From a virus, in the IMG/VR virus record IMGVR_UViG_3300046507_000633, positions 1 through 26,986 of that record: DNA of 26,986 bases. One strand, given 5' to 3'. A program made the translations under genes and the position numbers. The notes beneath the pieces were generated by a model that saw only the letters and a list, made by a program, of their open reading frames with translations, ran no database searches and had not been told where the DNA came from. Positions 66-20,178 of this stretch are shown here, piece after piece (position 1 is the first letter of the stretch; each line of letters opens with the position of its first letter).

Positions 66-287
66 CTGCGCACCTGGTGATGCCACGGAGATCCAAGGCG
101 GCCCAGGGTAAACCATGGCTCGGGAGCCGCGGGAGGATATCCTCCTTACCGCCGGTCCAGTGTCGCCTCGGCCAGGCCATGGTCTCCCCTTCCCCAGGCC
201 TTCCGCCGACGCGCGCCTTCCTCGTCCGTTTGCATGCCGTAACGAATTCGCTAATATGCTAATTAGCGAAACGAAAGAGAGACGCAA
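66..287. other. GC-rich non-coding leader with palindromes
   Basis: No convincing gene. The stretch holds a perfect 14-bp palindrome at 132-145 (GGAGGATATCCTCC), a GGCTC/GAGCC hairpin at 117-128, and a segment at about 176-203 resembling 2402-2432 (shared TGGTCTCCCC...CCAGGCC). It ends with a family-A repeat just before the first gene. Confidence 0.4.
243..273. repeat. Family-A repeat A1
   Basis: Two opposed half-sites, CGAATTCGCTAA and TTAGCGAA, separated by ATATGCTAA-like sequence. It lies immediately upstream of the ribosome binding site of the gene starting at 288. Confidence 0.75.
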
Positions 288-599
288 ATGACACAGATCA
301 GCAAAGACCTCTATGACGAACTCGTAAGCGCCGACATGCAAGAGGCGTTCGAGCTCTTCGTGCAGCAGCGCGCCTACTTCGAAGTGCTCAATGTCACAGC
401 CGGCATCGTTGGCCGCGTCGATCGTTGGAGCGACAGTCTGTTCTACAATGCCTCTGATTATTTCGATCATGATGGCAAGCAGTATGCCAGCGTCAAATAC
501 GCTCATCGCATCACCAGCGAATACCATCGCTTTGAAAGCCACGACGAAGCACGCGCCTTCGCCATGACGCTTCTCGCCGACATCGCTCACGACGTCTGA
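288..599 (+). CDS. Hypothetical protein (103 aa)
   Basis: I do not recognise this family. The ATG at 288 follows a purine-rich ribosome binding site (GAAAGAGAG). The protein is soluble, rather acidic, aromatic-rich in the middle (YFEVLN, WSDSLFY, YHRFESHDEA) and has no membrane segment or obvious motif. It stands alone between two family-A repeats, with a repeat upstream that may control it. Its composition is closer to ordinary phage genes than the GG/CC-depleted island further right. A 191-codon antisense frame overlaps it and is taken as a shadow. Confidence 0.7.
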   Translation: MTQISKDLYDELVSADMQEAFELFVQQRAYFEVLNVTAGIVGRVDRWSDSLFYNASDYFDHDGKQYASVKYAHRITSEYHRFESHDEARAFAMTLLADIAHDV

Positions 600-643
600 T
601 CCTCCGCCACATGCGAATTCGTGCCGTCACTCGCCAGATTGCA

Positions 644-664
644 CGAATTCGCTAATTCGCTAAA
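644..664. repeat. Family-A repeat A2
   Basis: Tandem CGAATTCGCTAATTCGCTAA, with a partial copy (GCGAATTCG) at 613-621. It lies 35 bases upstream of the ATG at 699, which is why the shorter start is chosen for the next gene. Confidence 0.8.
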
Positions 665-698
665 ATCAAAGCGTCAACAACGACAGAGAGAACCGAAA

Positions 699-878
699 AT
701 GCTTTATCCAGCTCCTACGACCATCATCCACGTCAAGCCGATGACGCGCACGACCAAAGACCGCCGGCGTCATATGCTCGACCTTGCTGTGACCGTCGCG
801 CATGAAGCGCTCTCTGCCCTGGCGCTCGTCACCTTCGTCTCTGCGATCACGACGATCGCCTTGATCATCCACCACTAG
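699..878 (+). CDS. Small single-span membrane protein (59 aa)
   Basis: The frame is open from 621, but the ATG at 699 is preferred: it follows a GAGAG-type ribosome binding site, and the extra 26 codons would be encoded by a family-A repeat. The N-terminal half is basic (RTTKDRRRH) and polar. The C-terminal part, from about residue 36, is a hydrophobic run (ALSALALVTFVSAITTIAL) ending in IIHH. This suggests one membrane span with the basic segment inside the cell. Function is unknown; small phage inner-membrane proteins of this type include superinfection-exclusion and lysis-control factors, but nothing here chooses between them. A strong terminator follows directly. Confidence 0.65.
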   Translation: MLYPAPTTIIHVKPMTRTTKDRRRHMLDLAVTVAHEALSALALVTFVSAITTIALIIHH

Positions 879-936: not shown

Positions 937-1039
937 GCCAACCTGAAACCATGGCGTATAAATCGGGGAACCAAGGCGCATGGCGTGTCGATTCGCCGTC
1001 CTCCGCCGACTCCCGCGCCGCCCGCCTCGCCTATTTGGT

Positions 1040-1101
1040 TAGTCAGTCTAGCTGATCATGCGTATGCTGATAGTCAGTCACACTGATCATTCGTATGCTA
1101 A
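1040..1101. repeat. Tandem 31-bp direct repeat (family C)
   Basis: Two abutting 31-bp copies (1040-1070 and 1071-1101) match at 26 of 31 positions. Shared blocks are TAGTCAGTC, CTGATCAT and CGTATGCT, and each copy carries TGATCA. The pair sits exactly at the left border of the GG/CC-free island. It could be an operator pair, origin iterons or a recombination scar. Confidence 0.75.
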
Positions 1102-1143
1102 CGATGTTACGCGATTCAATCGCATTCGATCGATCATGCACGC

Positions 1144-1169
1144 AAAAAGCGCGCTATCTCTAGCGCGCT
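1144..1169 (-). terminator. Bidirectional terminator ending the minus-strand pair
   Basis: Two copies of AGCGCGCT (1148-1155 and 1162-1169), each self-complementary, form a stem around a 6-base loop. On the minus strand it is followed by five T (complement of 1144-1148); on the plus strand by CGTTTT. It ends transcription of the two minus-strand genes to its right. Confidence 0.8.
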
Positions 1170-1187
1170 CGTTTTCAGTGTGTCGCG

Positions 1188-1364
1188 TCACTCTGCTAGC
1201 GCTTGCTCGCGATAGTTGATGAGCGCGCGAACTTCGTGCGTCTCATAATCGTCATCCAACTCTAAGAGTGCAATGACGTCGCTTTGCGTCATAGAGTTGA
1301 GTGCGATTTTCTCGCGCATTTGCTCGCGCTCGCGACGTTCGCGCTTAGACAGATGAATTCTCAT
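1188..1364 (-). CDS. Hypothetical 58-aa protein without Gly, Pro or Trp
   Basis: A short minus-strand gene. The ATG (1364-1362) follows the leader ACGAAAGCGA, which is also found before the next upstream gene on this strand and supports both starts. The protein is charged and probably all-helical: an N-terminal basic stretch (KRERREREQMREK), then an acidic central part (LLELDDDYETHE). It has no Gly, Pro or Trp, and its coding strand has a single GG, at one codon junction. A strong terminator lies 18 bases past the stop. The arrangement resembles a small DNA-binding or regulatory protein, but I recognise no family. Confidence 0.7.
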   Translation of the reverse strand: MRIHLSKRERREREQMREKIALNSMTQSDVIALLELDDDYETHEVRALINYREQALAE

Positions 1365-1401
1365 AGCATGTTCGCTTTCGTGTCTGTGACTGTCTCTGTG
1401 T

Positions 1402-1429
1402 CTGTGAGCGTGCTTTCACACGCTCACAG
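1402..1429. other. 11-bp stem-loop between the two island genes
   Basis: CTGTGAGCGTG (1402-1412) pairs perfectly with CACGCTCACAG (1419-1429) around a 6-base loop. No T-run follows on either strand, so it may be an RNA-processing or attenuation hairpin rather than a terminator. It abuts a family-B site. Confidence 0.65.
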
Positions 1430-1443
1430 TCAATATTGATTGA
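1429..1443 (-). promoter_or_regulatory. Family-B site B1
   Basis: TCAATATTGA core plus TTGA flank, oriented with the minus-strand genes. It lies between the stop of the 187-aa gene and the 58-aa gene, next to the stem-loop. Confidence 0.6.
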
Positions 1444-2007
1444 TTATGCGAAGCGCGCAGCGATTGCGCTCATAATCTCGTTATCGTTCACAGTATACTT
1501 GTCTTTCGACACTGCTTTAAGCAAGTTCAAAGCGAGCAAAGCGCGCATGTTCATTGAAGTGTGACGCTTCGCAGAGTCATATGCATCTTTACGACGAAAG
1601 TAGAGATGCGCGCGCGACTTGTCGACTTTGATATCTTTATCAAGCGCGATCTCAATATCTTTCGCTTCGAATTGTTCATTGTTCTTGTAGAAGTTCACAA
1701 GCGTGCGCAACACTTCTTCGACGTTGCTCTTAAGCTTGCTCACGTCGCGCTTGTTCACTGCGAATTCGATCATGTGCGCAGTGTTTTCGAGCGCTTTCAT
1801 GTCAAACATGTAGTTAGCGATTTTCTTGTCTTCTGCGAAAGTCTTTGCAACTTCGCAACGTTCAAGCATTGCAGCAACGTCGCTGTTTTGAACAACAAGC
1901 GCGCACTTCGATATGAAGTTAAGAGAGTTTGCGCTCTTGTTGTTCTTCACTTCTACGTCATAGCGATCAGAGAGAGACTGTGCGTATGCGTTGATTACAG
2001 TAGTCAT
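1444..2007 (-). CDS. Hypothetical 187-aa protein without Gly, Pro or Trp
   Basis: The frame is open to 2058, but the ATG at 2007 is preferred because it follows ACGAAAGCGAG, the same leader as the downstream 58-aa gene. The protein is lysine/asparagine/alanine-rich and predicted mostly helical, with a leucine-rich C-terminal region (MRALLALNLLKAVSKDKY) and a central charged helical part. It contains no glycine, no proline and no tryptophan in 187 residues, because GGN, CCN and TGG codons are absent together with every other GG or CC, including across codon junctions. I recognise no family. Base use is unlike the GC-rich genes around it (about 46% GC, very rich in GCGC), suggesting different ancestry or a special DNA-level constraint. 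Confidence 0.75.
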   Translation of the reverse strand: MTTVINAYAQSLSDRYDVEVKNNKSANSLNFISKCALVVQNSDVAAMLERCEVAKTFAEDKKIANYMFDMKALENTAHMIEFAVNKRDVSKLKSNVEEVLRTLVNFYKNNEQFEAKDIEIALDKDIKVDKSRAHLYFRRKDAYDSAKRHTSMNMRALLALNLLKAVSKDKYTVNDNEIMSAIAARFA

Positions 2008-2086
2008 GATGTAACTCGCTTTCGTGTGTTGTTGAGTTGTCGTTGTTGACATGCTCACTAAACGCTTGTTCGCATCGAATGTAAAT

Positions 2087-2110
2087 AGCTAATTCGCTAA
2101 TTCGTGAATT
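2087..2110. repeat. Family-A repeat A3
   Basis: AGCTAATTCGCTAATTCG followed by TGAATT. It lies 80 bases upstream of the minus-strand start at 2007, in the probable promoter region of the island genes. Confidence 0.75.
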
Positions 2111-2532
2111 ATTTTTAGGATAATTGTGTGTGCTGCTATTTGACTCACACAAGCGCAAGGGCGCGCGTTCATGCGTGCGCAGTGTCACACAACGCGCAGC
2201 GCTAGGGATCGCTCGTATGACGCTCTGTGTGTCAGTGTGTGCGCATAGAGTTTGCGAGCGATGCGAAGTCTTAGAGAAAATCGAGCGTGTCGAACGGGAT
2301 GCCTTCTGGCGCCTGAGCAACTCCCGGATCGGACTACCCTTCCTCGTCTCCGGTCGAGACGGACAGCACTCCCTGGGTAGGATCTGTCAACATCCGTCAA
2401 CCTGGTCTCCCCTCCCCTGCTCCAGGCCCGAGGTTCCGGTCTCCCGGTCGTGCTTAGCGAAAGGACGATATCGCTAATTCGCTCCCCAGGCAGATCCTTC
2501 CAGGTTTCCACTACCCATCCTGCATTCAGGCG
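2111..2532. other. Structured non-coding spacer
   Basis: No supported gene in this spacer between divergent units. The first 180 bases retain the GG/CC-poor, GCGC-rich style of the island; from about 2295 the composition switches abruptly to GC-rich. The GC-rich half holds a GTCTC/GAGAC hairpin (2346-2360) and a pair of inverted arms (2372-2386 and 2491-2504, sharing CCTGG..AGGATCTG) about 100 bases apart, which enclose a family-A repeat. An untranslated RNA is possible but not demonstrated. Confidence 0.4.
2471..2483. repeat. Family-A repeat A4
   Basis: TCGCTAATTCGCT, a single short copy in the spacer upstream of the 178-aa gene. Confidence 0.6.
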
Positions 2533-3139: not shown

Positions 3140-3151
3140 CCGTTTCTGGCT

Positions 3152-3174
3152 TTCGCTAATCCGCGAATTCGCTA
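3152..3174. repeat. Family-A repeat A5
   Basis: TTCGCTAATCCGCGAATTCG then CTA. It lies between the 178-aa gene and the P-loop gene, 46 bases before its ATG. The adjacent bases form a small GCTACG/CGTAGC stem. Confidence 0.7.
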
Positions 3175-3219
3175 CGGCAACCCTGTCGTAGCGAGCCTAC
3201 CGTAACCAGGAACGCCCGA

Positions 3220-3783: not shown

Positions 3784-4127
3784 TGCAGGTCTGGTATCAC
3801 GGCAAGCTTCAGGGCGATCTGCACGGCACCCTCAAGATCGTCAATGGCATCGCGTGGTTCGCGGTGATCGAGGATGATGCCATCTTTAACGAATTCGCTA
3901 TTTCGCTAAATACCAGAAATCACGAATTCACTGGCTTCGACAACATGAACTCTGGGCTGGATCCGGAAAACTACATCCTCAAGGAGCTTGGCCTGAAGCC
4001 CGGCGAATACGAGAAGATGACGTTTTTCAACCGCGACGCCTTGCGGGTCACCTGGAGGATCCTCGAGCCACAGAACAACGAGGAGCTCGAGTTTCTCTTC
4101 GACCTGCCGGGGTTTGAGCCGCTATGA
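3783..4127 (+). CDS. Hypothetical protein with in-frame family-A repeat (114 aa)
   Basis: The start overlaps the previous stop by one base (TGATG). No family is recognised. It begins with a beta-rich section (MQVWYHGKLQGDLHGTLKI) and ends acidic (NNEELEFLFDLPGFEPL). The segment NEFAISLNTRNHEF (about residues 36-49) is encoded by a family-A repeat cluster at 3888-3931 that is AT-rich and out of style with the surrounding codons, as though the repeat had been inserted and tolerated in frame. The gene is probably co-transcribed with the P-loop protein. Confidence 0.7.
   Translation: MQVWYHGKLQGDLHGTLKIVNGIAWFAVIEDDAIFNEFAISLNTRNHEFTGFDNMNSGLDPENYILKELGLKPGEYEKMTFFNRDALRVTWRILEPQNNEELEFLFDLPGFEPL
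3888..3931. repeat. Family-A repeat A6 inside a gene
   Basis: AACGAATTCGCTATTTCGCT and then AAAT, followed by CACGAATTCAC at 3921-3931. The cluster lies wholly within the 114-aa coding region. Confidence 0.75.
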
Positions 4128-5298: not shown

Positions 5299-5480
5299 GT
5301 TTCGAGAAGGCCGCGCTTCAGGGCACGTTCGACCAGCTTCTCCAGGCGATCGCGCTCGGCCTCGAGCACCTGGATGCGCTCCAGCAGATAGACCTCGGTG
5401 TAGGCCGAAAGGCCACAGGTGTTGAAGAAATGCACCGGATCGGCCAGGCGCGGGGAGGGGGTGGCTTGCTGGACGGTCAT
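5289..5480 (-). CDS. Small coiled-coil protein (63 aa)
   Basis: The ATG at 5480 overlaps the helicase stop (ATGA) and has a strong ribosome binding site (AAGGAAAG), so it is preferred to the longer frame starting at 5513. The C-terminal half is a heptad-like charged helix (YLLERIQVLEAERDRLEKLV, then ERALKRG), likely a coiled coil. The N-terminal part is short and proline-containing. No enzymatic motif. Tight coupling to the helicase gene suggests a helicase partner or oligomerisation factor, but this is context only. Confidence 0.7.
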   Translation of the reverse strand: MTVQQATPSPRLADPVHFFNTCGLSAYTEVYLLERIQVLEAERDRLEKLVERALKRGLLETAD

Positions 5481-7078
5481 GCTGCTTTCCTTTGCTGAGC
5501 GAAGATGGACCAATCGAAGTCCTGGTTGGCCGGCAGAATGCCCTCCTTGAAGCCAGGGGTGCTCTCGACGACCTTGCGGCGCGATCGGGTGTGTTCGGCA
5601 AGCGAGATGTTGTTGCCGCAGGTGTAGTCGGCGATGAAGCAGACGTTCGGGACGTCGCCCTTCTTGGCGCGCAGCCCGCGGCCGATACGCTGACGAAGGG
5701 CAACTTCGGCTTTTCCGCCACCGCAGAGCTGGACCAGGCCGAGGGCAGGGACGTCAACGCCGACGTCGACGATGGTCGAGCCGATCAGAACGTCGATTTC
5801 GCCTGCAGCGAGCTGTCTGAGGGCTTGCTTGCGCTCATTCTGCTTGTCCTCGCCTCTCAGGAAGACGACACGCAGCCCCACGCGCTCCATTTTCTCCTTC
5901 AGCTTGTCGCCGTGCTCCATGCGGGTGACGAGAGTGAGCACCGGCAGCCCGTAGCGCTTCGCCATCAGGGCATCACGGATGATGTCCTTGTGCATGTAGC
6001 CGTTCTCGACGTAGCCGAGCTGGAAGGCACGCTGCCAGGGCGAGGTCCGGAACAGCTTGTCGTGGTGCTTCGAGGTGACGAACTTGAAGATCGGCCGGGC
6101 GAGAATGCCGCGGTTGATCAATTCCTCCTCGGTGATGCGGATCAGCACCGAACCGAAGGCTGCCATCAGGCGCATGTTGTCTTCGGCGCTGTCACGCATG
6201 AACGGAGTGGCGGTCAGCGCAACGCGCACCGCGGCGTTCTTGCAGTGACGCAGGATCTCGTAATAACTGTTGCCGCCAGCCTCGTGGGCTTCCTCACCGA
6301 TGACGACCTCGATCATCTCGAGGAACTTCAGATAGCGATTTCGCCTATTCGTCTTTTCGCTAAATCGCTCTTCCGCGATTTTGCGAACTTCCTCCTTCGA
6401 CATGTTGGCGTTTTTCTTCTTCGACCGGTGAATCGACTTCACGACAGCGCGGATCTCCTCGTCGAGCGAGGTCTCCTTGAGGGCCGCCACGAAGGTCTGG
6501 ACCATGCCGAGGTTGACGCCCTTAACCATCTTCTCCTCGCCATCGCCGACGACGCCGGTGTTGATGCCGATGGCGTCGACCTGATCCTTCATCTGATACA
6601 TCAGAACGCCGCGGGTGGTCAGGAAGAGGGTAGGGCGCCGGTAGCGAGCCATGATCAGCTTGGCAATTTTCGATTTGCCGCCACCGGTCGCTACTTGAAC
6701 GATCCCTCTTCCGTGCTTCTCAACCTGACGGAGCGCCTTGAGCTGGAAGTCATAGCGCGGATCGTCATTGCCGAACTCGTCAACGATCGGACTTTCGGGG
6801 CCAAGGGGGAGGGGAGGGGCCTTTCGGATCAGGTCGACCTTGTAGCCGGCGCGGGTCAGCTCCGAATGGATCATGTAGACGAAGCCAGCAGGGAAGCTGT
6901 CGCTGCGTGTCTCGTAGAAGGTCGAGCGGCCGTCCCAGGAGCCCTGGTTGAAGGCGAAGGTCTGTTCGGCGCCGGCAACCATATAGGAGAGCTTTTCGCT
7001 GACCAGCGTGGCAACGTCGGCCGGCGGGTCGATGAGCTTTGCGTTCACGGCGTTATGGGCAAGTCGGATAGTTTTCAT
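5477..7078 (-). CDS. SF2 DNA helicase (DEAD/DEAH-like, UvsW type)
   Basis: About 533 aa from the ATG at 7078, which has GGTAA/GAGA upstream; an in-frame ATG at 7102 would add 8 residues but has no ribosome binding site. Helicase motifs run in order: motif I TGGGKS near residue 130, a GEEAH motif II (variant of DEAH) near 265, motif III TATPF near 290, and motifs V-VI with IGSTIVDVGVDVPAL and RQRIGRGLR near 445-490. The N-terminal domain before motif I resembles the accessory region of phage recombination helicases. Expected role: branched-DNA remodelling or replication restart, with ATP hydrolysis in the cytoplasm. A family-A repeat lies inside the coding region at 6333-6369, and a family-B site upstream is shared with the divergent ParB-like gene. 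Confidence 0.88.
   Translation of the reverse strand: MKTIRLAHNAVNAKLIDPPADVATLVSEKLSYMVAGAEQTFAFNQGSWDGRSTFYETRSDSFPAGFVYMIHSELTRAGYKVDLIRKAPPLPLGPESPIVDEFGNDDPRYDFQLKALRQVEKHGRGIVQVATGGGKSKIAKLIMARYRRPTLFLTTRGVLMYQMKDQVDAIGINTGVVGDGEEKMVKGVNLGMVQTFVAALKETSLDEEIRAVVKSIHRSKKKNANMSKEEVRKIAEERFSEKTNRRNRYLKFLEMIEVVIGEEAHEAGGNSYYEILRHCKNAAVRVALTATPFMRDSAEDNMRLMAAFGSVLIRITEEELINRGILARPIFKFVTSKHHDKLFRTSPWQRAFQLGYVENGYMHKDIIRDALMAKRYGLPVLTLVTRMEHGDKLKEKMERVGLRVVFLRGEDKQNERKQALRQLAAGEIDVLIGSTIVDVGVDVPALGLVQLCGGGKAEVALRQRIGRGLRAKKGDVPNVCFIADYTCGNNISLAEHTRSRRKVVESTPGFKEGILPANQDFDWSIFAQQRKAA
6333..6369. repeat. Family-A repeat A9 inside the helicase gene
   Basis: Degenerate iterations: TAGCGATTTCG, CTATTCG, and TTTTCGCTAAATCGCT. 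On the coding strand they encode the segment around EERFSEKTNRRNRY, between motif I and motif II. Confidence 0.55.
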
Positions 7079-7114
7079 TTTTCTCAGATTACCTGTTGCC
7101 AAGTGGTAAGGCGT

Positions 7115-7134
7115 TCAGTAAATATTGATTGAAC
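7115..7134. promoter_or_regulatory. Family-B site B3 in divergent spacer
   Basis: TCAGTAAATATTGATTGAAC sits in the 85-base spacer between the divergent helicase and ParB-like genes, so it may control either or both. Confidence 0.65.
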
Positions 7135-7163
7135 GTAGCCAACTATGCAAGGCCAACCATCCA

Positions 7164-7880
7164 ATGACATACCCCAAGGGGATCGACCTCGATCCGCGTG
7201 TTCTGAAGCCCAATCCGTGGAACACGAACATCATGACGCCGGAGAACGAAGCCAAGCTGGAGGCTTCTGTTCGACGCCTGGGTTTCTTTCGTCCGGCTGT
7301 CGTTCGCGAATTCGCGAATGGGCAAATTAGCGAATTCCAGATCCTCGGCGGCCAGCATCGCGTCGAAATCGCCATCAAGATCGGGCTCGCCACCATCCCG
7401 GTCGTCAACCTCGGCCCGATCGATGATCTGAAGGCCAAGGAGATCGGCATTGCCGACAATGCCCGATACGGCGTCGACGACACGCTCGCCTTCGCAGAAC
7501 TCCTCAAGGAGATGGGCAATGCGGATCAACTGGCAGACTTCCTTCCCTACACGCAAAGCGACTTCGACGGATATTTCGCGTCTGCTGAAATAGACTTGGA
7601 TTCATTGGAGTTTGAAGAAAACTTCGACCGTCACGAAGAAAGCCAGGCGGAGCCCGACCCGGAGCTTCCGAAGGCGCCCAAGACCCACACCATCGTCCGC
7701 TTCAAGGTTGCCCTGAAAGACGCCGAAGAGATCACAGCCCTCATCGAGCGCACCAAGAAGACCCACGGATTGACGACCTCGGACGAACTCACCAACGCCG
7801 GTGACGCCCTGGTCCAGCTTCTCTTCTCCGCCGGCACCTCGAACGAGCTCGAGGATCTCGAACTCGGGGAAGATGAATGA
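7164..7880 (+). CDS. ParB/Srx-fold domain protein 1
   Basis: 238 aa from the ATG at 7164; an upstream TTG at 7125 lies within the family-B site and is rejected. The N-terminal 110 residues match the ParB N-terminal (sulfiredoxin-like) domain, with ILGGQHRVEIAIKIG (GGQHR at residues 62-66) in the place of the usual GHRR/GERR box and a following IADNARY. The C-terminal half is acidic and lacks the canonical ParB helix-turn-helix, so it is probably not a chromosome-type ParB. Phage ParB-domain proteins often sit next to DNA-modification or terminase genes and may be nucleases or CTP/ATP-binding switches. Residues 48-58 (REFANGQISEF) are encoded by a family-A repeat. The stop overlaps the next small gene (ATGA). 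Confidence 0.8.
   Translation: MTYPKGIDLDPRVLKPNPWNTNIMTPENEAKLEASVRRLGFFRPAVVREFANGQISEFQILGGQHRVEIAIKIGLATIPVVNLGPIDDLKAKEIGIADNARYGVDDTLAFAELLKEMGNADQLADFLPYTQSDFDGYFASAEIDLDSLEFEENFDRHEESQAEPDPELPKAPKTHTIVRFKVALKDAEEITALIERTKKTHGLTTSDELTNAGDALVQLLFSAGTSNELEDLELGEDE
7303..7337. repeat. Family-A repeat A10 inside the ParB-like gene
   Basis: TTCGCGAATTCGCGAA, a short GGGC interruption, then AAATTAGCGAATTC. It encodes REFANGQISEF within the ParB domain without breaking the frame. Confidence 0.75.
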
Positions 7881-10394: not shown

Positions 10395-10504
10395 TGCGGA
10401 TTTCGCTTATTCTTGCTTTCGCTATTTCGCTCTGTGTGAGCTCATGCTCTGCGACAGCACCCGCATACGCAAAACTCGACGGAGCGCGCTGTGAGCGAAA
10501 CTGA
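10394..10504 (+). CDS. Possible 36-aa lipoprotein-like peptide
   Basis: GTG at 10394 overlaps the HAD stop and follows AGGTGG. The product would start RISLILAFAISLCVSSC, a short signal peptide with a lipobox-like VSSC, followed by a 19-residue mature part (SATAPAYAKLDGARCERN). It overlaps the start of the acyltransferase gene. The caution is that much of the hydrophobic run is encoded by a family-A repeat (10400-10431), which yields FAISL-type peptides in any suitable frame, so it may be fortuitous. Confidence 0.3.
   Translation: MRISLILAFAISLCVSSCSATAPAYAKLDGARCERN
10400..10431. repeat. Family-A repeat A11
   Basis: Degenerate run ATTTCGCTTATTCTTGCTTT then CGCTATTTCGCT. It is the right-most family-A copy and lies between the HAD and acyltransferase genes. 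Confidence 0.6.
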
Positions 10505-11360
10505 GACGATTGTGACGCGCTCTGATAACGCGCGAGCGCGCTTTGCGCTCGCTGACGACATGTGGGTCGAACGGGGCACGAAAGCCGACTGGGAGCTGCT
10601 CCACGATCTGCACTACAAGGCCGAGGGTCTGCCACTGGGTCCGCGCTTCTGGCGCCTGGATCTGCACGGCGAGACGATCGGCGTCCTGGTCACCGGCAAT
10701 CCGAAGGGCATGCTGCGCGAGCGCCACATGGTGTTTCCGAAGCTGAAGCCCGGCGGCAAGGAGACCAAGATGACGAACACCAACCGGTTCAACTTCATCA
10801 ACGGCAATTTCCGCGTGGTCTCGAGGTTCGTGGTCGACACCATGTATCGCGGGATCGGCGCCGGCTACCGGATGATGAACCTGGTGTCGCGCATCGAGGG
10901 CAACACCTTCATGGAGATTCAGTCCTCCATGTCGAAGTTCAACATCTTCGGGCAGAAGGCAGGCTTTAACTTCGTGGCGCCGACCAATGCCAACAAGTAT
11001 GAGGCCGGGCTCAAGTTCTTCCGCAAGAATTTCGCTGCCAATCCCCAGGACTTCGAGGCGATCGTCGCCGAGATCGAGGGATCGCCGGCGCGTGAGACGC
11101 TGATCGAGGGGGCTCGCGAATTCTACATGCGCAACTCGGCGCTCGAGAACACCGGCGCTGCGCGTGAGAAGGCCGAGGGCAGGGTGGCTGCCATGACCGC
11201 CCGCGACCTGGTGAAGGGCATTCAGCAGATCGCGCTTGCCTCGCCGATGTATGGAATCTGGCAGTGTCCGGACAAGAAGGGCACGGTTCCGGAGCGGCTT
11301 CCGCTGCTCGCATTCGATTGTCAGGGCGCGCGCGAGCCCTTGAAGTGGAAGCCGGAATGA
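10491..11360 (+). CDS. GNAT-fold acyltransferase, possibly Mom-like
   Basis: 289 aa, GTG start at 10491 with GGAG six bases upstream. Residues about 106-160 carry the GNAT core: beta strand FRVVSRFVVDT, acyl-CoA loop YRGIGAGYRM (residues 119-128), then FMEIQSSMSKFNIFGQKAGF, the typical strand and NxxGxxxGF-like end. Mu Mom, which makes the modified adenine of phage Mu, is also GNAT-fold, and ABC ATPase/ParB neighbours favour DNA rather than protein as substrate, by inference. The first 24 codons are GG/CC-depleted and unlike the rest of the gene. The C-terminal 100 residues are helical with a final beta-rich section of unknown role. It overlaps the next gene by ATGA. Confidence 0.75.
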   Translation: MSETETIVTRSDNARARFALADDMWVERGTKADWELLHDLHYKAEGLPLGPRFWRLDLHGETIGVLVTGNPKGMLRERHMVFPKLKPGGKETKMTNTNRFNFINGNFRVVSRFVVDTMYRGIGAGYRMMNLVSRIEGNTFMEIQSSMSKFNIFGQKAGFNFVAPTNANKYEAGLKFFRKNFAANPQDFEAIVAEIEGSPARETLIEGAREFYMRNSALENTGAAREKAEGRVAAMTARDLVKGIQQIALASPMYGIWQCPDKKGTVPERLPLLAFDCQGAREPLKWKPE

Positions 11361-18616: not shown

Positions 18617-19408
18617 ATGCTCAAGCTCTACCCCGAGAACTATGACGTCTCCGTCGATGTGCTCTTCACCGATCTCAATGGCGACCTGATCACGGTCACC
18701 GGCGTCTCCGCTGCGCTCTACGACGGCGACGACGAACAGGTGGTCGACTTCGGAAGCCTCCCGTTCGACTTCACCGAAGGCAAGAAGACGGTGGTCATCC
18801 CGGCCTCCTTCAACGTTCTCGAGGTAGACGAGCTCTCCACCACCCGGATCCTTCGGGTGGTTCTCTCCACGCTTGCCGGCGACGTGCACCGATCCTTCGG
18901 TTACATCATCGAGGGCGAGACTCGGCTGGAGATCCTCAACAACACCTTCGTCACGCTCGAGGCTGCAGAGGCGCTGCTTCGCGACATGCCGTCGCTGAAA
19001 GCCTACCAGGCAGCCAGCGATGATCAGAAGGCGGCCGCCCTCATCAACGCCTATACCAGGATCGCGCGCGTCCAGGTTCGTTTCGAACAGGAGCCGCCGA
19101 TCGGCACGAGCTGCCGGCGCGAAGTCACCATCCGGCCGGGCGGCTGGAGCGAAATCACGAAGGATGAATTCCTCGGATACCCGAAGAGCTTCCGCAAGGC
19201 ATTGCGCCTGGCGCAGCTCAACGAGGCAAACGTCATCCTGACCGACAGCCCGATCGCGGCCCGCCAACGTGACGGTATCATCTCCGAGACCGTCGGTGAA
19301 AGCTCGGTCATGCTGAAAACCAGCAAGCTCGATCTCGGTGTCGATCGCTCGACCCTGCAGTTCCTCTCCGGCTACGTCTACTACACGATCAGGCTCGGCC
19401 GCGCATGA
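18617..19408 (+). CDS. Head-tail connector-region protein (263 aa)
   Basis: ATG at 18617, three bases after the previous stop. The N-terminal about 110 residues are beta-rich (LYPENYDVSVDVLFTDLNGD) and resemble an Ig-like or decoration domain. From about 112 on there is a helical region (EAAEALLRDMPSLKAYQAAS, INAYTRIARVQVRF) that looks like a head-tail adaptor fold. No catalytic motif. The position after the capsid and before HK97 gp10-like and tail-terminator genes supports a connector role. The ATGA end overlap couples it to the next gene. Confidence 0.65.
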   Translation: MLKLYPENYDVSVDVLFTDLNGDLITVTGVSAALYDGDDEQVVDFGSLPFDFTEGKKTVVIPASFNVLEVDELSTTRILRVVLSTLAGDVHRSFGYIIEGETRLEILNNTFVTLEAAEALLRDMPSLKAYQAASDDQKAAALINAYTRIARVQVRFEQEPPIGTSCRREVTIRPGGWSEITKDEFLGYPKSFRKALRLAQLNEANVILTDSPIAARQRDGIISETVGESSVMLKTSKLDLGVDRSTLQFLSGYVYYTIRLGRA

Positions 19409-20178
19409 TCCCGACGCTGCTGACGCAAAAGGCCGACCAGGCATCCTTCCGCTACGGGCTGTTTGTGGAATCGCTCCGCTCGCTGTTCCAGCAGTCGCTG
19501 GCCAGCTCGAGGTTCGGCACGCCAGCTCTCGTTAACGAGGTCTATGCCGAGGCCATTCAGCTTGGGCTCGATTTCAACGCCATCGAGGCGGAACACTTCG
19601 AAGCCGACATGAACGAGATTGCGCTACAAGCGCGCACAGCGACGTTGAATGAAATCGAGAGCATCGACACGCACGAGCTCACGGACGCAGCCCTTGAGCA
19701 TCTGAGCGAGTCTCTCGACTATCTTCGCAGTGAATTGCTCGCTCAGTCGTCGCGCGATATCGCAACACTGCGCAAAGGCCTGCAGCGCGTCGCGCTTGAG
19801 GTGAACATTTCGGCGCGTTCGCACGGACGTCCGCAGCGCTCGGCGCTCATGGAATACCTGGTCGGCAACAAGGCTGGCATCGAATTCTTCTTCCATGATC
19901 GGGCGTCGCGCAAGTGGGAGTCGAAGACCTTCGTTCGGTCGATCTGGCGCCACACCCTGCTGTCGGTCTACAACGAGGTCGTTCTCTTCACACTCGCCGA
20001 TCACGGCATCACCCGCGCAGCCGTCGAGCATGTCTCGCCGGGCGCCGAGTGGCGCGACTTTGTGATCGCACTCTCCTCCGGTTCGGAACTCCCGACCTAT
20101 TCGGAGATCCGCGACAAGATCTTCCATCCGAATGCCTACGCCTACCTGCGCATGGAGACCCCAGATGTTTCAGCCTAG
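19405..20178 (+). CDS. Minor head protein-like (Mu gpF-type, tentative)
   Basis: 257 aa. The N-terminal half is helical and acidic. The C-terminal part has SIWRHTLLSVYNEVVLFTLA, DHGITRAAVEHVSPGAEWRD and IFHPNAYAYL, reminiscent of the C-terminal domain of phage Mu F-like minor head proteins, with HPN near the end. The match is by eye and tentative. The stretch 19606-19776 has only two GG/CC occurrences in 171 bases and uses GCG/ACG rather than GCC/ACC codons, unlike the rest of the gene, suggesting a patch of different origin. The end overlaps the next gene by 14 bases. Confidence 0.55.
   Translation: MIPTLLTQKADQASFRYGLFVESLRSLFQQSLASSRFGTPALVNEVYAEAIQLGLDFNAIEAEHFEADMNEIALQARTATLNEIESIDTHELTDAALEHLSESLDYLRSELLAQSSRDIATLRKGLQRVALEVNISARSHGRPQRSALMEYLVGNKAGIEFFFHDRASRKWESKTFVRSIWRHTLLSVYNEVVLFTLADHGITRAAVEHVSPGAEWRDFVIALSSGSELPTYSEIRDKIFHPNAYAYLRMETPDVSA

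Follow-up and report, generated by a model that had tools for sequence, protein, structure and literature searches.

The locus described here raises the question of why one operon of a phage is written almost without the dinucleotides GG and CC, and what process would penalize them in that place only. The window (the whole analysed stretch of 26,986 nt, IMG/VR record IMGVR_UViG_3300046507_000633) is a contig of a RHEph10-like Rhizobium phage (about 116 kb). It is syntenic with Y2_11, with 76.7% nt identity across 46% of the query.

A transcription unit free of GG and CC

The original prediction was an island of 1079 bases with one CC and no GG. The recount of positions 1039-2117 agreed with it, as GG is absent and the only CC is at 1256-1257, where base composition predicts 57 CC and 57 GG. 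The predicted uninterrupted stretch of 860 bases (1258-2117) was found as a run of 862 bp, which has a probability of about e^-120 given the rate outside the island; the next longest GG/CC-free runs in the window are 219 bp, also inside the island, and 90 bp. The island is not simply poor in G and C, as was also foreseen: its GC content is 46%, and the dinucleotides CG and GC are each at 1.76 times the expectation. Mononucleotide shuffles of the island (n = 20,000) had 113 GG/CC on average and 75 at minimum. With the protein fixed and phage codon usage applied, 49.8 ± 5.3 GG/CC are predicted for gene 1 and 16.4 for gene 2, against 0 and 1 observed, and codon usage as the cause was ruled out. 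A dinucleotide-preserving null is unusable as a test, because the count is fixed by it. A weaker depletion extends to position 2295, with five GG/CC in 2118-2295. The depletion is real, and its reach is far larger than first noted. Mild GG depletion was also seen in the neighbouring genes (window 288-878), and it is mild in Y2_11 too.

The following features were recognized at the locus (window positions):
1039-2117, no strand: GG/CC-free island, delimited by dinucleotide counts, run lengths, and shuffles, with the weakly depleted flank beside it
1148-1169, no strand: terminator-like hairpin AGCGCGCTA-TCTC-TAGCGCGCT at the end of the unit, kept in all relatives
1188-1364, minus strand: second island gene, 58 aa, carrying the sole CC/GG of the island; its position is kept in relatives
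1402-1429, minus strand: intergenic hairpin between genes 1 and 2 with a GG/CC-free stem
1444-2007, minus strand: core island gene P0001, 187 aa without Gly, Pro, and Trp, predicted to be helical in its N-terminal part and to end in a winged-helix domain; orthologues in RHEph10-like phages are 69-72% identical
2008-2117, minus strand: leader/promoter region within the island, its promoter elements identified by eye
2264-2273, minus strand: TAAGACTTCG element upstream of the unit, from locus comparison and genome counts
2296-2303, minus strand: GGCATCCC element at the outer island edge; similar GC(A/G)TCCC elements flank the islands of relatives

P0001 and the 58-aa gene form a minus-strand operon, and the hairpin stems hold only GC/CG steps. 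In most single-gene islands, GG/CC reappear 7-32 nt past a GCGC-only terminator-like hairpin. In X66-type phages, the last GG/CC upstream of the gene is a CC some 100 bp ahead of the ATG, where the -35 box is predicted; promoters, including this box, were read by eye. Islands carry one to three genes, and their length grows with gene number. The island is one transcription unit, which runs from a promoter through its one to three genes to a GCGC-only hairpin. The TAAGACTTCG element sits immediately upstream of the unit in directly read loci, and of the 23 genomes counted, 13 have exactly one copy.

Another intergenic motif, built around CGAATTCGCTAATTCGCTAA, recurs at window positions 237-260, 645-665, 2085-2105 (inside the island leader), 2465-2485, 3150-3175, and 3890-3908, and may be a phage promoter or operator. 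In RHEph10 (L004, NC_034248), the RefSeq genes gp097 and gp098 at 19106-19786 and 18945-19109 are plus-strand shadow ORFs over the island, the true genes being on the minus strand, as conservation shows.

Distribution of the islands

A UvsW-like helicase, a ParB-like pair, an ABC ATPase, phrog_886, TerL, and portal place the window in the SSU5/RHEph10/Nickievirus lineage. Among the core genes of the window are:
5477-7102, minus strand: UvsW-like helicase, the synteny anchor
7125-7880, plus strand: ParB-like protein that opens the core cluster common with SSU5-type phage-plasmids
10491-11360, plus strand: orthologue of the core gene phrog_886 "ABC-type ATPase fused to acetyltransferase", assigned by synteny

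The orthologous locus is an island in RHEph10, RHph_Y2_11, N1_10, N1_15, and one IMG/VR phage, and in complete genomes of the RHEph10 group it is the sole one per genome. Every relative checked in two more clades of Rhizobium phages and among the Nickievirus Pseudomonas phages also has exactly one island per genome. The island proteins of Rhizobium phages X66, V1VFA-S, and B1VFA are 28% identical. The islands of Pseudomonas phages nickie and hairong are about 1.1 kb long, yet no match to P0001 was obtained for them by plain protein search. GG/CC counts over genomes and relatives thus gave one island per complete genome, kept across clades, and the original prediction was not contradicted by relatives having conserved DNA with normal GG/CC, as relatives with 70% and even 28% identity retain the island.

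For a wide scan, the lineage helicase was used as anchor and 107 loci were taken from virus and bacterial contigs. Syntenic islands were found about 1.5 to 9 kb past the helicase in about 45 distinct elements of alpha-, beta-, and gammaproteobacteria with genomic GC of 0.41 to 0.66, in a scan that rests on helicase similarity and would overlook related islands in other places. No island was found in the relatives SSU5, Cyrano, pJN2-26, and ANB28 and in elements of Paracoccus, Magnetospirillum, and Xenorhabdus; the whole conserved core is present also in island-less relatives.

Island elements L221-L223, L229, L235, and L244 are from bacterial assemblies (Faunimonas, Ancylobacter, Phyllobacterium, a Methylocystis MAG, Chitinibacter, and a Piscirickettsiaceae MAG). 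Several of the contigs are about 103-118 kb long, which suggests phage-plasmids or co-sequenced phages. A DUF2829 gene, coding for a Tad2-type anti-Thoeris domain, lies in L003 (20987-21289) between the ABC ATPase and phrog_886 core genes, and a similar gene is in RHEph10. A CobT/CobS-like pair of VWA and AAA+ proteins (Y2_11 64190-68032), adjoining a phage sigma factor, is conserved lineage-wide.

About 13,800 GG/CC are present elsewhere in each island-bearing genome. Depletion is confined to the island, and genome-wide depletion of the word, as in restriction-site avoidance, was not found. Gene 1 of the window differs from its orthologues by 157-178 substitutions; 25% of random changes make GG/CC, but only 0-1 of these did. 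The absence is therefore kept by strong purifying selection, and neither chance nor recent descent explains it.

The core protein and the avoided word

Island proteins form one family, to which the nickie-type proteins are weakly attached; L100 and L141 were excluded from the alignment, as the automatic choice of the island ORF was wrong. According to the family search, nearly every island phage checked has a paralogue about 2-3 kb off, coded on ordinary DNA with normal Gly/Pro/Trp and GG/CC. Profile comparison of the island family with the paralogue set gave a probability of 99.8 and an E-value of 4e-29 over 181 columns. Island-less relatives have a homologue with 13-18 glycines at the island position. 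As the paralogue is normal in Gly/Pro, the protein itself does not require the bias, and a protein need for the absence of Gly/Pro/Trp was ruled out by the normal paralogues and the island-less homologues. The original prediction was right that the constraint acts on DNA and not on protein, crossing codon junctions and spacers: besides the normal paralogue, the three non-coding pieces of the island have 0 GG/CC against about 33 predicted.

For both the island protein (pLDDT 92) and the paralogue (pLDDT 93), AlphaFold predicts helices in the N-terminal part and a winged-helix domain at the C-terminal end. Matches to wHTH proteins are weak, with a best Z of 7.0 (VIA-align, where all matches listed were of wHTH type), and the C-terminal part of the paralogue matched wHTH folds in Foldseek with probability 0.93-0.99 but E-values above 0.2. 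The island protein is plausibly a DNA-binding regulator, weakly ArsR/MarR-like in its model. Sequence searches in Pfam, PHROG, NCBIfam, PADLOC, and PDB gave no function for it. The 176-aa CxxC/wHTH family was rejected as its homologue, with an hhalign probability of just 4%. The product of the phrog_5235 core gene (Y2_11 101584-102450, SSU5 76559-77494) may be a distant third relative (E-value 5e-4 to 3).

The avoided word varies with lineage. It is GGN in most of them, and GGV and GGB classes also occur. In the GGV class, GGA/GGC/GGG were counted 8 times against 201 expected and TCC/GCC/CCC 22 times against 201, while GGT (47 against 61) and ACC (63 against 96) are tolerated. In the Chitinibacter element L235, of the GGB class, GGC/GGG/GGT/GCC/CCC/ACC are absent against about 51 expected, while GGA/TCC are tolerated (24 against 18). 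A GGC-only class is possible, its expected counts being low. The third-base rule is mirrored on both strands, the trace expected of an enzyme that reads double-stranded DNA, which speaks for such a reader and is difficult to reconcile with a reading of RNA or codons. Class labels change 13 times on the helicase tree of 51 elements, also between the near-identical helicases L119 and L123.

In most lineages, CC on the sense strand is avoided as fully as GG. Leaky members still avoid GG on the sense strand; in G007, two GG were observed against 30 expected, and 28 CC against 60. This ties the harm to transcription and fits events on the template strand hurting most. In G007 (IMG/VR 3300046474_000274), the island at about 93360-94100 is GG-free on the sense strand only.

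Possible marking of the DNA, alternatives, and known systems

A modification system that reads GG/CC, one of the causes named in the original prediction, is the best surviving idea. With a chance that we put a little under even, GG-type sites on the phage DNA are marked or lesioned and block transcription, and the island is an early unit that is still readable. Incoming or intracellular phage DNA would carry a base modification or a lesion at these sites, RNA polymerase would be unable to read usefully through them, and the island, without a GG-word on either strand, would be the sole unit readable in the marked state. It would deliver, in immediate-early time, a recoded duplicate of the winged-helix regulator, and the regulator copy on normal DNA would be expressible only later. 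We hold somewhat more tentatively that a putative marking, switchable between GGN, GGV, and GGB, silences the phage's own genome, that infection starts from the unmarkable regulator unit, and that the normal copy stays silent for as long as the block lasts. The single island per genome across clades, the near-absence of GG/CC among the substitutions between orthologues, the boundaries at unit edges, the strand-mirrored words, the normal paralogue, the persisting avoidance of sense-strand GG in leaky members, and the match of GGC with a target of the CAjan deazaguanine system support marking; the search for a modification enzyme, in which none was found, and the core common to island-less relatives count against it.

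In that search, a TGT-fold transglycosylase (PF01702) as in DpdA-type systems was found in 0 of 25 genomes and in 14 of 14 control genomes, by a domain search that could miss a strongly divergent DpdA2. C5 methylase (PF00145) was absent from the scanned island-bearing phage genomes, G011 excepted. No gene was found whose presence or absence tells island-bearing relatives from those without an island. The 176-aa CxxC/wHTH gene was rejected as a discriminator, being present also in G007, ANB28, Paracoccus, and Magnetospirillum, and so was an HNH gene, which is of a homing-type family with non-orthologous hits. The ParB-like pair, the ABC ATPase, and the ATPase-acetyltransferase phrog_886 are no more than candidates, as they also occur in relatives without an island. 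The quick switching of specificity would need frequent replacement of the enzyme or a host-encoded one, which counts against marking; a host-encoded enzyme is possible and would fit the rapid changes.

A frequent-cutting or nicking nuclease, either from a restriction system of the host or the enzyme with which the phage itself degrades host DNA, could instead act early at GG-type sites, the island serving as intact template until protection is made, as T5 first-step-transfer DNA does. Its strand-mirrored and lineage-switching specificity of 2-3 bp would resemble restriction, Nickievirus has T5-like long terminal repeats (PMC11256456), and among the annotated genes is one of A1 type. We nevertheless consider it unlikely, as one spared kilobase would be insufficient among so many remaining GG/CC unless the rest is protected, the boundaries track the transcription unit rather than a DNA segment, and avoidance in leaky members is strand-asymmetric. 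It is quite improbable that the target is mRNA, such that an RNase or RNA-binding factor would act on transcripts at GG and spare the message of the island. The island does coincide with a transcription unit, and sense-strand GG is the strictest avoided word in leaky members, but the word set is mirrored in antisense (TCC/GCC/CCC avoided where ACC is tolerated, and ACC avoided where TCC is tolerated), and sense CC is avoided as completely as GG in most lineages.

The mutator of the original prediction, a CC-targeting deaminase, or another local process such as biased repair or gene conversion removing GG/CC here only, would agree with the lower GC content of the island (46% vs. 59%). It is very improbable, however, given that GG/CC are wholly missing over 0.75-1.5 kb in dozens of lineages, with edges at promoter and hairpin, that motif classes vary among lineages, and that fresh GG/CC should linger between mutations, whereas the 157-178 substitutions left just 0-1. 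Escape from CRISPR is hardly credible: GG/CC serve as PAMs in some systems, but they are retained in all other phage genes, islands occur in phages of many host genera, and neither the GGV/GGB classes nor the limit to one transcription unit is explained. The packaging constraint also proposed found no support.

In a literature search of partial coverage, no earlier report of such an island was found, and we regard the GG/CC-free transcription unit in phages as novel. It is a footprint, visible in sequence only, of a hidden DNA-level process: one operon was recoded, its main protein was stripped of Gly/Pro/Trp, and this is kept in dozens of phage lineages on diverse hosts. If confirmed, marking would be a new type of phage DNA marking or a transcription control through DNA marks, and a computational route would be opened to find such systems and infer their specificity from the genome alone.

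SSU5-type phage-plasmids have core genes in common with the island phages, including helicase, two ParB, ABC, and phrog_886; the difference is that SSU5, Cyrano, and pJN2-26 are without an island. The first-step-transfer or pre-early region of T5, about 10 kb long, is similar in the siphovirus type, the long DTR in Nickievirus, the A1-type gene, and early genes handled apart; we know of no dinucleotide-free operon in T5. A long DTR was reported for Nican01 of Nickievirus (PMC11256456). The deazaguanine system of phage CAjan with DpdA targets GA/GGC motifs, as cited in PMC8306585. A GGC-type short word is targeted there, and GGC is the core avoided word of the islands; the system has the TGT/DpdA domain not found in the 25 genomes examined here. 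To our knowledge, no unmodified island has been described for it. Phages avoid restriction recognition sites (PMC6286503), where short DNA words are missing because an enzyme reads them, strand-symmetrically, as would be the case in the island. Restriction-site avoidance is, however, genome-wide and concerns words of 4-8 bp, whereas the island concerns a 2-3 bp word in one transcription unit, with thousands of copies elsewhere.
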